A stretch of DNA of 41,412 bases, taken from positions 1 through 41,412 of the forward strand of contig JACRLG010000019.1 in assembly GCA_016235345.1 (NCBI GenBank). Direction: 5' to 3'. Origin of the DNA: Deltaproteobacteria bacterium. GTDB lineage: Bacteria; Desulfobacterota; Desulfobacteria; Desulfobacterales; Desulfatibacillaceae. Positions within the stretch are counted from its first letter, which is position 1. Each line of letters starts with the position of its first letter. The notes beneath the pieces are model-generated. The model was given only the letters and a program-made list of their open reading frames with translations, had not been told where the DNA came from and made no database searches. The translations under genes were made by a program, and so were the position numbers. Of the stretch, positions 19,302-41,412 are shown one piece after another.

Positions 19302-20777
19302 TTATTCACCGGAATATCTGCTGGTTATGCGATGCTTGCGTAGAAGCTCATAAAGGCGTGGGGCGGAAAGGCCGGAAAGGGCTGCGGCCCGTTTGACCTC
19401 GCCCTCCGTCCTGGCAAGAAGCTCCACCAGGTAGCGTTTTTCTGCGTCTTCCACCATGGTGCGGCGGAAATCCTGCCATTTGAGGGGCATGGTCTCGGCG
19501 CTTTTAGCCGTCTCGTCCGGGGCCGTGGGAGAGGACGGGATTTCGCTGATGCCCGCTTCCTTTTTTTCCTGGACGGCGGGGGCGTGGCTTTCGATTTTTG
19601 TGAAGGCGCTCCTTGCCAGGGTGGCCCGGATGGAGGCGGGCAGGTGCCTTGCGAAAAAGAGGGGCTCGTCCTGGGCTTCGGCGAAAACGCTTTCCATGGC
19701 GTGCTGAAGCTCCCGCACATTTCCGGGCCAGGGATAGGATTCAAGATCCTTAAGAAACATGGGGGAAAGTTTTTTCTTTTCCGTCCCGGTTCTCCGGGCC
19801 TCCCTTTCAACGAAGTTCTCCACCAGGGGCAGGATGTCGTCCACCCTGTCCCTTAAGGCCGGCAGGTGGATGGTGACGGCCTGGAGCCGGAAAAGAAGGT
19901 CTTCCCGGAACTTGCCCTCGGCGGCCATGCGGGCCAGGTCTTTATTGGTGGCGGAAATGAGCCGGAAGTCGCTTTCCACCTCCTCCACCTCGCCTATGGG
20001 GCGGAAACGCCTTTCCTCAAGCACCCGCAGGAAGGCCTTCTGCAGGGGGAGCGGAAGGTCCCCCACCTCGTCGAGAAACAGGGTGCCCTGATGGGCGTGC
20101 CGGACAAGGCCGGTTTCAGCCTTGTGCGCCCCGGTGTAGGCCCCCTTGGCGTGACCGAAAAGAAGGCTTTCCGCAAGGGTCTTGGGAAGGGAGCCGCAGT
20201 CCACCACCACGAAATTTTTGTCCGCGCGCGGGCTGTTTTCGTGGATGAGGCGAGCGAACATCTCCTTGCCCGTGCCGGTTTCGCCGTAGATGAGTACGTG
20301 GGAGTCGTTTTTGGCGCAGCGCGCGGCCAGGGACAGGCAGTTGTTGAGGGCCGGGCTTCTGCCCACTATCCCCCGCCGGTTCAGCTTGTCCACCGGGTCG
20401 CTCAAAATTTTCTGCCGCCGGTATTGAAGGGCGTTTTCGAGGGCCAGGACAAGTGAATCCATTGAGGCGGGTTTTTCGATGTAATCCCAGGCATCCGCCT
20501 TGATGGCCCGCTCTGCTGAATCGGGGTCGGCGTAACCCGTGACCACTATGACTTCCGGGCGGGAGGGCACGGTTTTCAGGAGAGGAAGGTATTCCAGGCC
20601 GTTGCCGGAAGGAAAGCGCACGTCCAGAAACACCGCGTCCGGCCCCATTTTGATGGCCTTTTCCAGGCCTTCATCGAGGGTGTGGATGCAAACGACTTCG
20701 TGGCCCTTGTCCCTGAATATGCGTTCAAGGATGGCGCAGATGGCCACATCGTCATCTATAACGAGGAGTTTTGCCAT
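19302..20777 (-). CDS. Sigma-54-dependent response regulator
   Basis: The 491-residue NtrC-type regulator has a receiver domain with phosphoacceptor D52 (VFLDVRFPSG). A AAA+ domain follows with Walker A GETGTGKE near 170, the sigma-54 contact loop as GAYTGA (Tyr in place of the usual Phe) and VDCGS. The C-terminal Fis-type helix-turn-helix reads GEVKRAAALSGLSAPRLYELLRKH. The start is set at MAKLLVIDDD where the receiver begins; an upstream extension is possible. The histidine kinase gene ends 83 bases upstream on the same strand, so the pair is a probable two-component system. The target promoter is unknown. Confidence 0.93.
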   Translation of the reverse strand: MAKLLVIDDDVAICAILERIFRDKGHEVVCIHTLDEGLEKAIKMGPDAVFLDVRFPSGNGLEYLPLLKTVPSRPEVIVVTGYADPDSAERAIKADAWDYIEKPASMDSLVLALENALQYRRQKILSDPVDKLNRRGIVGRSPALNNCLSLAARCAKNDSHVLIYGETGTGKEMFARLIHENSPRADKNFVVVDCGSLPKTLAESLLFGHAKGAYTGAHKAETGLVRHAHQGTLFLDEVGDLPLPLQKAFLRVLEERRFRPIGEVEEVESDFRLISATNKDLARMAAEGKFREDLLFRLQAVTIHLPALRDRVDDILPLVENFVEREARRTGTEKKKLSPMFLKDLESYPWPGNVRELQHAMESVFAEAQDEPLFFARHLPASIRATLARSAFTKIESHAPAVQEKKEAGISEIPSSPTAPDETAKSAETMPLKWQDFRRTMVEDAEKRYLVELLARTEGEVKRAAALSGLSAPRLYELLRKHRITSRYSGE

Positions 20778-20860
20778 AGTATGATGCCAACTTACCCCGA
20801 TAACGACAAAAAGGTCAACACTTTTCCCAAGATATCCCAGGTATAAGCCCAAGGGCCTTT

Positions 20861-35441: not shown

Positions 35442-35825
35442 ATGAAAGCCAAGGATCGTTTTTTCGTATCCGATGATGGCATAATAGAGGATGTGCTGGA
35501 AAAGCTCTTCTGGGTCGTGGGGCCGGACAAGAACATGTCCTTCAACCAGGCCAGGGCATGGGCGTCCAACCTGACCACAAGGGGCCTCAAATGGCGGCTT
35601 CCCACCATCAAGGAGCTTCAAAGCCTTTTGGACCTTGAAAACAAGCCGTCCAACATCTATAAGATTTTCAAGCTCTCGGCCTGGTACGTGTGGAGCGGCC
35701 AGGAGCAGGGCCCGACAACGGCCTGGGCCTACTTTTTCACCCATGAGGCCGAGGACTGGAGCACCAAGTCGGCCTCCCACGGGTTCCGGGCCATTGCCGT
35801 CCGTAACTCCGACAAGCCAGATTGA
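35442..35825 (+). CDS. DUF1566 (Lcl C-terminal-like) protein
   Basis: The 127-residue protein shows the DUF1566 signature: WVVGPDKNMSFNQARAWA, WRLPTIKELQSLLD and a C-terminal AYFFTHEAEDWSTK and HGFRAIAVRN. The domain resembles formylglycine/C-type-lectin-like modules of unknown activity, often on surface or exported proteins, but no signal peptide is visible here. Only a weak ribosome binding site precedes ATG 35442. It is not part of the conserved uppS-cdsA set and probably arose by insertion. Confidence 0.75.
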   Translation: MKAKDRFFVSDDGIIEDVLEKLFWVVGPDKNMSFNQARAWASNLTTRGLKWRLPTIKELQSLLDLENKPSNIYKIFKLSAWYVWSGQEQGPTTAWAYFFTHEAEDWSTKSASHGFRAIAVRNSDKPD

Positions 35826-35859
35826 AACGAAAACGCCCCGGTTGACCCAAGGAGGAGCC

Positions 35860-36963
35860 ATGCGCAGGTCTCGGTTCATTTTCATGGTTCTCGCAGCCAC
35901 GGTTCTCGCCGCTTCCTGCGACCCGTCGGCCTTCGGCCCTTCCGGCACAGATTCCCGCAGTATGGCCGTTAATCTGTCCAAGGTGTCAGCCGAGCTTTCC
36001 CGATCCGGTTTTCAGCTCACCCTGCCCGGCCCCTTTGACTTAAAGCCCGCCAGCATAGCCCGGACGTCGGCAAAGGGCGTGGAAATGATGGAGCCGCCGC
36101 CCGCCATCATTCCGGTTTCCGCCAAGCCCAACAGATTCAACACCCTTTCCACCAACATCCTTTTAAAATCCGGCGAACTGGCCGGGCTTTTCGGGGCCGG
36201 TTCCGCAAGAGCCCAGGCCGTCCTGGACCGCGCTGGCATAACCGACGTCCTGATGAGCCTCACCGGGGTGACGGTGAAAGACGCCGGGAAGGAATTCCAC
36301 ACCGATAAAATTGCGCTCTCCCTTCTTTCGGAATCCTATCTCGAAGCCCTTGCCGGGGCCGCCGACTCTGCTGACGGCGAGGTCTTCCTTCTGGGGGGGG
36401 TCGTGGAGTGCAGGGGCGCGACCTTCCGCATGTTTTTCACCGACTCGGCCAAATTCAATGCGGCCAGGGACGAGCTGGTAATGCTCTTCGGCGCATCCAA
36501 TGATTTCGAGAAGATAGGCCGGAAGGAGGCCACCCTTTCGGTCATAAGCGGAAAGCCCATGACCGTGGCGGTGAAGCGGGTTTACGGCGAAATGATGGAC
36601 AAGGCCCTTGTCATGCAGGCGTCATCCCCCGCCTACACCATAAGGATGAGCGGCATAGACGATTACGGCTACGCCTTTGTAAACGACCAGGAAATCCTGA
36701 GCGGGATCGACGACGATTCAGGCGAAACCTCCATAAACGCCTATCTCAAGCCCGGAGAAAACCGGATCGTATTCCAGCTTGTCAACGATGGCGCGGACCT
36801 TGCATACAGGGTTTCCGTAAGTGCCGACGGGCGCGGGGTGGACTGGGCCTGGGAAAAGGCCTGCGGAGTCAAGGGCGTAAAGGGCTGCTCGCGCCAAAAG
36901 GGAATGTTTGAGGAAAAATGCGTGGTGGTGTGCGACGGCTCCATGCGCTGCCGCATAAAATGA
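35860..36963 (+). CDS. Putative exported lipoprotein, orphan
   Basis: The 367-residue protein opens MRRSRFIFMVLAATVLAASC, a signal peptide ending in a lipobox (LAASC, acylated Cys20). The body has no recognised domain. The C-terminal third (KINAYLKPGENRIVFQLVND-like segment, actual SINAYLKPGENRI) resembles beta-sandwich carbohydrate-binding or jelly-roll folds. It ends with several Cys in a CRIK tail (CGVKGVKGCSRQKG, ..CVVVC..MRCRIK), perhaps two disulfides. GGAGGAGCC precedes the ATG. Function unknown; the gene between uppS and cdsA may be envelope related. Confidence 0.7.
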   Translation: MRRSRFIFMVLAATVLAASCDPSAFGPSGTDSRSMAVNLSKVSAELSRSGFQLTLPGPFDLKPASIARTSAKGVEMMEPPPAIIPVSAKPNRFNTLSTNILLKSGELAGLFGAGSARAQAVLDRAGITDVLMSLTGVTVKDAGKEFHTDKIALSLLSESYLEALAGAADSADGEVFLLGGVVECRGATFRMFFTDSAKFNAARDELVMLFGASNDFEKIGRKEATLSVISGKPMTVAVKRVYGEMMDKALVMQASSPAYTIRMSGIDDYGYAFVNDQEILSGIDDDSGETSINAYLKPGENRIVFQLVNDGADLAYRVSVSADGRGVDWAWEKACGVKGVKGCSRQKGMFEEKCVVVCDGSMRCRIK

Positions 36964-39695: not shown

Positions 39696-39714
39696 CCATG
39701 AAAATCCATCGATA

Positions 39715-39749
39715 TTGACTTATTGTGGCAAATTTGATACATTTATAAT
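39715..39749 (+). promoter_or_regulatory. AT-rich promoter of the AIPR gene
   Basis: A perfect -10 TATAAT (39744-39749) is preceded by TTGTGG (39723-39728, 15-base spacer) or TTGACT (39715-39720, 23-base spacer). The region is clearly AT-rich compared with the dxr side. Confidence 0.5.
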
Positions 39750-39792
39750 ATCCTAATAAAGAAGCAAATTTACCCAAATATAGGATGATAAA

Positions 39793-41343
39793 ATGGCAAG
39801 CAACCAAAGGATACTTCTTGATCAGGTTTTAGAGCAAAAGCGTCAAGAACTTGCACCAACAGCTACCCAAGCGTATTATTTTGAAATTTTCACTGCAGAA
39901 CAGATCCTTAAGGATTATGACCTTTCTTATGATGAAATTGAAGCGGGGAATACAGGTGGCAGTGGAGATGGAGGTATTGACGCCTTCTATTCATTCGTGA
40001 ATGGCGAGTTAATCCAAGAAGATAGTGACTTTTCTGCTGCGAAAAAGAATATCACCATCGAACTATATATTATTCAATGCAAAACGAGCACTGGGTTCTC
40101 TGAGACTGCGATTGATAAACTGATCTCGACTACGGAAGATTTGTTTGACCTATCTAAGCCGACTTCTGACCTTAAAACAGCTTATAATGAGAGCCTGCTT
40201 GTGGCTATTGAGCGATTTAGAGATATATATCAATCCCTTGCGTCCAAATTCCCCCAACTCCACATGAACTATTTTTATGCCACGAAAGGCGATGAGGTTC
40301 ATCCAAACGTACAGCGAAAAATCACTCGGCTTGAGAGCACAGTAAAAAACCATTTCTCCTCAGCCGAATTCAAATTCAAGTTCCTTAACGCGTCTGAATT
40401 GCTTCAATCGGCATGGCGAACACCTACCACATCATATGAACTTAACCTTTCAGAGAATCCAATTTCCTCAACGGGTGCCGTAGCATTTGTATGCTTGGTA
40501 TCCCTTAAAGATTTTTTTAAATTTATTACTGACGCACAAGGGCATTTAATAAGATATATATTTGAGGCTAATGTCAGGGACTACCAGGGTAAAACAGAAG
40601 TAAATGAACAGATTCAAGCATCCTTAAACTCAGTGCCATGTGAAGACTTCTGGTGGCTGAATAATGGGATTACCATTCTATCAAGTAAGGCTACCCAAAG
40701 CGGTAAAGCTCTAACCATCGAAAATCCAGAGATTGTTAATGGCCTGCAAACTTCAACAGAAATTGCCAACTATTTTAAAATATGCAACACAGAAAAAGAG
40801 AACAGAAACCTATTGGTGCGCGTCATTGTACCAAATCAGTCTGAAAGTAGGGACCGAATTATCAAAGCGACCAATAGCCAGACAACTATACCGCCAGCCT
40901 CGCTAAGAGCTACTGACAAGATACACAGAAACATTGAAGAATATCTAAAACCTTTAGGGCTATATTATGATCGCAGAAAAAATTTTTATAAAAACGAAGG
41001 CAAACCGATCAATCGCATTATCAGTATACCTCAGATTGCACAAGCAGTTATGGCAGTGCTTCTAAAGCAACCGGATATGGCCAGGGCACGTCCTTCATCG
41101 CTAATCAAGAGAGATGAAGAATATTTTAAACTGTTCAACCCAACATACCCAATCGAAATATATCGTACTTGCACTGAACTTATGAAAAAAACCGATCTTT
41201 TTTTAAATACGCATAGTCTTTCATCGACAGATAAGAACAATCCTGAATCCGTGACGCCTTCGTTACACACCTGTTTTCATGGTCTTGGGGGTGTCAATTT
41301 TCGAAGTTTCTCTGCCTTGACGATCCTGGAAAGGCGAATTTGA
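39793..41343 (+). CDS. AIPR-family anti-phage protein with PD-(D/E)xK-like N-terminus
   Basis: The 516-residue protein has the AIPR (abortive infection phage resistance) core: WWLNNGITILSSKA near residue 290, ENPEIVNGLQTSTEI near 315, LLVRVIVPN and IIKATNSQT. The N-terminal 110 residues carry GGSGDGGIDAFY with D63 and LYIIQCKTS with Q95-x-K97, a Mrr-like PD-(D/E)xK nuclease pattern. Many relatives are longer, and the last 35 residues (after HSLSSTDKNN) do not read like the family, so it may be cut short. It has lower GC than its neighbours and its own AT-rich promoter, consistent with a transferred defence gene. Confidence 0.85.
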   Translation: MASNQRILLDQVLEQKRQELAPTATQAYYFEIFTAEQILKDYDLSYDEIEAGNTGGSGDGGIDAFYSFVNGELIQEDSDFSAAKKNITIELYIIQCKTSTGFSETAIDKLISTTEDLFDLSKPTSDLKTAYNESLLVAIERFRDIYQSLASKFPQLHMNYFYATKGDEVHPNVQRKITRLESTVKNHFSSAEFKFKFLNASELLQSAWRTPTTSYELNLSENPISSTGAVAFVCLVSLKDFFKFITDAQGHLIRYIFEANVRDYQGKTEVNEQIQASLNSVPCEDFWWLNNGITILSSKATQSGKALTIENPEIVNGLQTSTEIANYFKICNTEKENRNLLVRVIVPNQSESRDRIIKATNSQTTIPPASLRATDKIHRNIEEYLKPLGLYYDRRKNFYKNEGKPINRIISIPQIAQAVMAVLLKQPDMARARPSSLIKRDEEYFKLFNPTYPIEIYRTCTELMKKTDLFLNTHSLSSTDKNNPESVTPSLHTCFHGLGGVNFRSFSALTILERRI

Positions 41344-41412
41344 ATGGTTTTATAGCTTTGATCGCCGATTATTGTACGTGAAGGCCGAATTTCACCAATT
41401 TCCGGGCATGTC

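Follow-up and report, generated by a model that had tools for sequence, protein, structure and literature searches.

Sections of a published study (PMC10359306) report that insertion sequences put CRISPR-Cas out of action, as they do 12 further kinds of defence cluster, and its part on the latter concerns IS1 and IS10. With regard to defence proteins with a ParB-like fold, passages of two further reports (PMC4619093, PMC10853773) place GmrS and DndB in the ParB-type superfamily. Here we describe an AIPR gene of the AbiU type at the right end of a window of 41,412 nucleotides from Deltaproteobacteria bacterium (Desulfatibacillaceae; GCA_016235345.1); this window is an entire contig (C19; JACRLG010000019.1) of its source genome (G000), and the contig end lies inside an insertion sequence (IS). 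The best account of the locus, in which we place high confidence, is that a stand-alone, predicted anti-phage AIPR gene of the AbiU type, of about 562 codons, was interrupted after codon 483 by a 1664-base pair (bp) IS of the IS1380 family, with duplication of the target ACAAT. The locus resembles the cases in PMC10359306 in that an IS lands in a defence gene, disabling it, and differs from its IS1 and IS10 examples in that an IS1380-family element has entered an AIPR gene.

The gene is seen in the window as an open reading frame (ORF) on the plus strand (39793-41343), which starts with ATG and encodes 516 amino acids. Its product matches the Pfam family AIPR (PF10592) at 2.1e-38, with 133 bits against a cut-off of 25, as well as the PADLOC AbiU profile (PDLC02357) at E 4.3e-190, with residues 4-483 aligned on profile positions 1-463 of 537. 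These matches identify it as an AIPR gene of the AbiU type, a damaged member of the same family. A first-pass annotation made from the DNA letters had placed an AIPR gene with a nuclease-like N-terminus at 39715-41412; the family assignment stands and so does the presence of an ORF, the start being the ATG at 39793, 78 bases downstream of the one noted. The features that define the break are as follows.

39793..41241, plus strand: 5' part of the AbiU-type AIPR gene, codons 1-483 (79% identity to the full-length relatives L026 and L056)
41237..41241, plus strand: ACAAT, the 5-bp target duplication in its left copy (on contig C28 these bases recur just past the right end of the element)
41242..41412, no strand assigned: left 171 bp of the IS1380-family element, reaching the contig end
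41242..41343, plus strand: 33 IS-derived codons and a stop, fused in the AIPR frame

The AIPR sequence ends with codon 483 at base 41241 and the element starts at the next base. Bases 41242-41412 equal positions 123579-123749 of another contig of the same assembly (C28) at 170 of 171 bases. On C28 the element is complete at 1664 bp, has 13-bp inverted ends (CCTGAATCCGTGA) and encodes, on the opposite strand, a 440-residue transposase that matches the IS1380 family entry NF033539 of NCBIfam (338 bits, cut-off 180) and also PF13701; these family traits are read from the C28 copy, the window holding 171 bp only. The short inverted ends and the ACAAT duplication, read across the two contigs, agree with what characterizes the IS1380 family. 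The cause of the break, which the first-pass annotation had left unnamed, is thus an IS1380-family insertion. The single base by which the two copies differ, at element position 139, may be an error, given its closeness to the contig end. The assembly has at least two copies of the element, one of them complete, and this repetition is most likely the reason why the window contig ends inside it.

The last 79 codons of the gene are found on C28, past the far end of the element. A protein search of the source genome returned a second place, on C28, that matched the tail only (residues 469-516); directly past the right end of the element, C28 reads ACAATGTGAAATTC..., which translates as VKFYIAMCASQVALND...PRRT followed by a stop, and ACAAT again stands immediately past the element. 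The 79-residue piece matches AbiU profile positions 464-535 (E 1e-8) and abuts the part covered by the window protein, which lacks this C-terminal segment. The nearest full-length relative found, 79% identical and from the same phylum, reads uninterrupted across the break as TDKNNIKFYIMMCASQ (TDKNN-IKFYIMMCASQ), and the two pieces read TDKNN and VKFYIAMCASQ. Together the pieces sum to 562 residues, and a length of 557-692 residues is seen in 87 of 93 related ORFs. An AbiU profile search of the source genome returned, at E 0.001, nothing beyond the two pieces, and hence no intact copy. The locus is therefore like other AbiU/AIPR genes (PF10592, PDLC02357) over the full length of both pieces, with the conserved residues kept, and differs from them in being cut after residue 483 by an IS.

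Alignment to full-length relatives bore out the suspicion that the gene is truncated and that sequence foreign to the family begins near 41235; the foreign tail is IS sequence, and it comprises 33 residues, not the 35 first counted. A search for full-length homologues that end at the same residue returned none, as 91 of 93 loci have at least 69 residues past position 483, and the two that do not (L112 and L158) are both broken genes, L158 having an apparent frameshift with the remainder of the gene in another frame. The segment past the break also carries a nearly invariant A-K pair (A541 and K542 of L105, a homologue from Binatia). The 93 loci include 80 genome loci, which are the best-scoring 80 of 403, a choice that favours intact genes, and they are not all independent, since at least two viral loci seem to repeat genome loci, L184 appearing by lengths and places to be the same contig as L108, and L195 the same as L171.

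Predicted models suggest an architecture for the intact relatives, for which two regions of the window gene are relevant.

39793..40422, plus strand: PD-(D/E)XK nuclease-like N-terminal domain, residues 1-210, assigned from residue conservation and a homologue model; within it lie D63 (39979-39981), Q95 (40075-40077) and K97 (40081-40083)
40462..40887, plus strand: AIPR core, residues about 224-365, with a predicted ParB/sulfiredoxin fold

The motif D63...Q95-x-K97, on which the first-pass annotation had based its nuclease prediction, is present at exactly those residue numbers. All three residues are shared by 12 of 12 aligned proteins, the window protein included, and by 62 of 62 in a larger alignment; among the 93 loci, D63 is kept in 89 of the 89 with a letter at that place, Q95 in 88 of 90 and K97 in 90 of 90. 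E104 is also conserved in this domain. An AlphaFold model of L105 was built from 62 sequences (mean predicted local distance difference test score, pLDDT, 87), 61 of the 93 loci having entered the structure alignment; L104, L107, L112, L113, L158 and L169 were left out as broken or cut, and visual inspection removed 26 more for their start codon, an unusual length or likeness. In VIA-align comparisons, residues 1-210 of this model aligned with FokI at Z 9.0 (root mean square deviation, rmsd, 3.0; 137 residues aligned), with MspJI at Z 8.6 and with HamA (chain A of the Hachiman HamAB complex) at Z 6.7, and the six best rows were restriction or nicking endonucleases. Conservation and model both speak for the nuclease-like N-terminus proposed earlier, and they suggest, with moderate structural support, that the N-terminal 210 or so residues of intact relatives form a FokI/MspJI-like PD-(D/E)XK nuclease. 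The likeness to FokI, MspJI and the Hachiman protein HamA lies in this predicted fold, and the difference in the lack of any sequence match between the AIPR protein and a solved chain: a sequence search of the PDB gave one chance row (E 0.25), a profile search of the PDB gave nothing, and the Pfam Mrr_cat match to the window protein reached E 0.22 only.

A different assignment, that intact AbiU-type AIPR proteins are HEPN-type RNases and not PD-(D/E)XK nucleases, draws on a hypothesis paper in which a passage gives AIPR proteins an N-terminal HEPN domain (PMC3506569), a statement that counts against the nuclease assignment. We regard the HEPN assignment as improbable. A HEPN domain would make the N-terminus all-helical, and the predicted model of L105 has strands at residues 64-69, 88-97, 155-164 and 192-198; the domain is modelled as alpha/beta, conserves D63, Q95-x-K97 and E104, and has FokI and MspJI as its closest listed folds. 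In addition, the HEPN member named in the relevant passage of PMC3710099 is AbiU2, a different protein.

For the AIPR core, residues 228-366 of the L105 model aligned with the ParB-like protein PadC at Z 6.6 (rmsd 3.2; 96 residues aligned). When the window protein's own residues 215-440 were folded together with the matching parts of 61 relatives (pLDDT 83), 14 of the 16 listed entries were ParB, Noc, KorB, PadC, SspE or sulfiredoxin, with a best Z of 5.7, and the first entry of another name stood at Z 3.6. The core model puts N316-G317-x-Q319 where a strand meets a helix and N361-S-Q363 at the end of a helix, places that may correspond to those of the ParB motifs GERR and ENxxR. These results suggest, again with moderate structural support, a ParB/sulfiredoxin fold for the core, and the models further suggest that the C-terminus of intact relatives is a helical tail. 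A 2025 survey of the ParB-CTPase fold does not include AIPR in its main text (PMC12704722), and the AIPR passages of the literature that we consulted do not state such a fold for AIPR, which may be stated elsewhere. The core is thus comparable to the ParB-like defence proteins GmrSD, SspE and DndB in its predicted fold and in a short N/D-G-x-Q motif at the strand-helix junction (as far as the fold is described in passages of PMC4619093 and PMC10853773), whereas AIPR carries a PD-(D/E)XK domain in front, and sequence profiles show no link to GmrSD_N or DndB.

Several results weigh against these structural assignments. Used alone, Foldseek matched the whole L105 model to nothing at E 0.001 or below, and VIA-align re-examines entries of Foldseek's own list only; the N-terminal part also aligns with unrelated RNA polymerase subunits at Z of about 5, and for ParB the Z values stay below 8 (at best 5.7 for the core folded alone, and 6.6 for the whole model). 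Profile-profile comparison of AIPR gave a probability of 0.4% with GmrSD_N (score 16.3, reversed control 15.9) and 0.1% with DndB, where the reversed control was higher, and the positive control, GmrSD_N against DndB, gave 88.5%. The best short alignment of AIPR and GmrSD_N falls on IVNG-x-Q against (I/V)DGQQ.

With both folds taken from predicted models, we tentatively propose, at somewhat less than even confidence, that intact relatives act as restriction-like switches made of one protein. Their middle AIPR domain, with a ParB/sulfiredoxin fold of the GmrSD/SspE/DndB type, would be the sensor, responding to a nucleotide or to some feature of the invader's nucleic acid, and the response would set the N-terminal PD-(D/E)XK nuclease free to act on phage DNA and perhaps host DNA; substrate, trigger and abortive outcome are all parts that we infer for the intact relatives. 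A broader conjecture, which we hold more loosely still, is that AIPR would be a single-chain nucleotide-gated restriction-like enzyme in which a PD-(D/E)XK nuclease is joined to a ParB/sulfiredoxin sensor, with N-G-x-Q and N-S-Q in the nucleotide pocket, and to a helical control tail; GmrSD and SspE would then have a PD-(D/E)XK counterpart in this enzyme, whose cost might be high enough to lead to repeated IS disruption.

As the window frame holds the nuclease-like domain and the AIPR core and lacks the helical tail, its 516-residue product is most likely inactive, with the reservation that a shortened protein could retain activity. That the product is a working variant with a new C-terminus gained from the element is very improbable: the frame does stay open for 33 codons past the break and both modelled functional domains lie upstream of it, yet relatives keep the segment beyond position 483 with its A-K pair in nearly all of the loci compared, and the fused tail is IS sequence for which no aligned relative has a counterpart. 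Least probable of all is an unbroken gene in the living cell, with an IS junction produced only by misassembly where the contig stops. Such an error might be suspected from the window contig ending 171 bp inside the element and from the unmatched other flank of the C28 copy; against it, element sequence adjoins the AIPR part on each side of the break, with a matching copy of ACAAT on each, a random misjoin is not expected to give exact inverted ends at both faces of one codon together with a 5-bp duplication, and the genome profile search found no intact copy.

Some features of the assembly nevertheless count against the favoured account. The two gene pieces lie on separate contigs, the left flank of the C28 copy is AGATTA and not ACAAT, and no partner contig for that flank was found by assembly search or by pattern search. 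The mismatch is explained by two copies of the element, joined either by the assembler or by real recombination. A synteny comparison of 40 kb of C28 and the window with ten stretches from relatives showed that the side of C28 bearing dapA is kept in a genome of the same genus; the AIPR site could not be placed in the stretches compared, and the join may be a chimera or a product of recombination. Whichever made the join, the gene is broken in the assembled sequence.

The gene was probably acquired horizontally, as judged from base composition: GC at third codon positions is 0.37 in the 5' part and 0.44 in the 3' piece, compared with 0.66-0.82 in nine other window genes and dapA. Upstream of the gene lies one further feature.

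39696..39792, plus strand: AT-rich spacer 5' of the gene, 27% GC, with one promoter-like match

This match (39715-39743; TTGACT, 17 nucleotides, TACATT) is weakly supported, as the region holds 7 such sites compared with 3.9 (standard deviation 2.0) in shuffled sequence. The left neighbours are, by Pfam, rpsB, tsf, pyrH, frr, uppS, cdsA and dxr, along with a Cdd1 gene. The genes uppS and cdsA are usually adjacent; here a 442-residue ORF without a PADLOC match (35635-36963) lies between them. To the right of the 3' piece on C28, a gene that reads as dapA is followed by other genes. The suggestion that a defence island continues past the right edge was not upheld, the C28 flank holding the end of the same gene, then dapA and others. 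PADLOC searches of 10 of the 23 ORFs of at least 170 amino acids in the next 20 kb of C28 gave two weak mad8 matches only (3.9e-6 and 4.6e-7), which we read as shared ATPase domains, and searches of 10 chosen window ORFs gave no match except for 19305-20852. This last ORF, 19 kb away, matches RtcR/CARF_AAA_HTH strongly (E 4.8e-95, residues 151-509) and SduA weakly (8e-6), and its product reads as a sigma-54-type activator sharing AAA and HTH parts. In its housekeeping region, and with no convincing defence gene among the ORFs scanned on either side, the AIPR gene therefore appears to be a solitary acquisition and not the edge of an island. On C28, the sequence left of the IS (L005:7552-8578) holds a fragment whose RHS-repeat match is below threshold (E 0.4), together with a stretch of 21% GC. 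Far from the AIPR locus in the same genome, a GmrSD_N (DUF262) match is found at C28:1848-2273 (L206).

AIPR/AbiU has a patchy distribution across relatives. Of 96 relatives searched, 16 have an AIPR match to the window protein, and of 395 genomes of the phylum, 27 match the AbiU profile; among plasmids, 120 of 72,556 records match, 39 of them over at least 80% of the query. Single-protein scans of genome and viral contigs found no relative, and relatives were found with an alignment instead. Clustering of the ORFs around 80 loci revealed no fixed partner gene: the commonest neighbour cluster touches 9 of the 80 loci, a count without a background rate for comparison, and the members inspected look like cytosine methyltransferases, with one Vsr-like member. 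Around the nearest intact AbiU relative (L056:2670-13470), neighbours match PADLOC Helicase_II/MzaC, Vsr and type II cytosine methyltransferase, and an ATPase-like neighbour without a PADLOC match looks like MORC by its sequence. On a Lactococcus cremoris plasmid (L098:3986-7038), the AIPR gene is followed by a hypothetical gene of 341 residues, which we suppose could be an AbiU2 partner.

Two other AIPR genes are broken by IS. In a genome of the same order (G069, contig C23; L063:5841-9036), a 1473-bp IS4-family element, flanked by a 10-bp target duplication (AATAACACCT), divides the gene, and in Nitrospirae an AbiU homologue 70% identical to that of the window (L112:8001-10370) stops at residue 368 at an IS3-family element, beyond which the AIPR end was not seen. 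Together with the window, these are three independent insertions by three IS families, and no excess over a control rate is claimed.

The window gene is in itself an ordinary IS-inactivated defence gene, a case of ordinary gene decay, and what interest it has comes chiefly from the architecture that the models suggest for AIPR. For this organism, a predicted defence gene that the profile still scores as AbiU, because most of the gene remains, is not to be counted as active. For the family, the two-domain model would make AIPR testable through its likely catalytic residues D63, Q95 and K97, its candidate nucleotide pocket (N316, G317, Q319, N361 and Q363) and the tail that the insertion has removed here.
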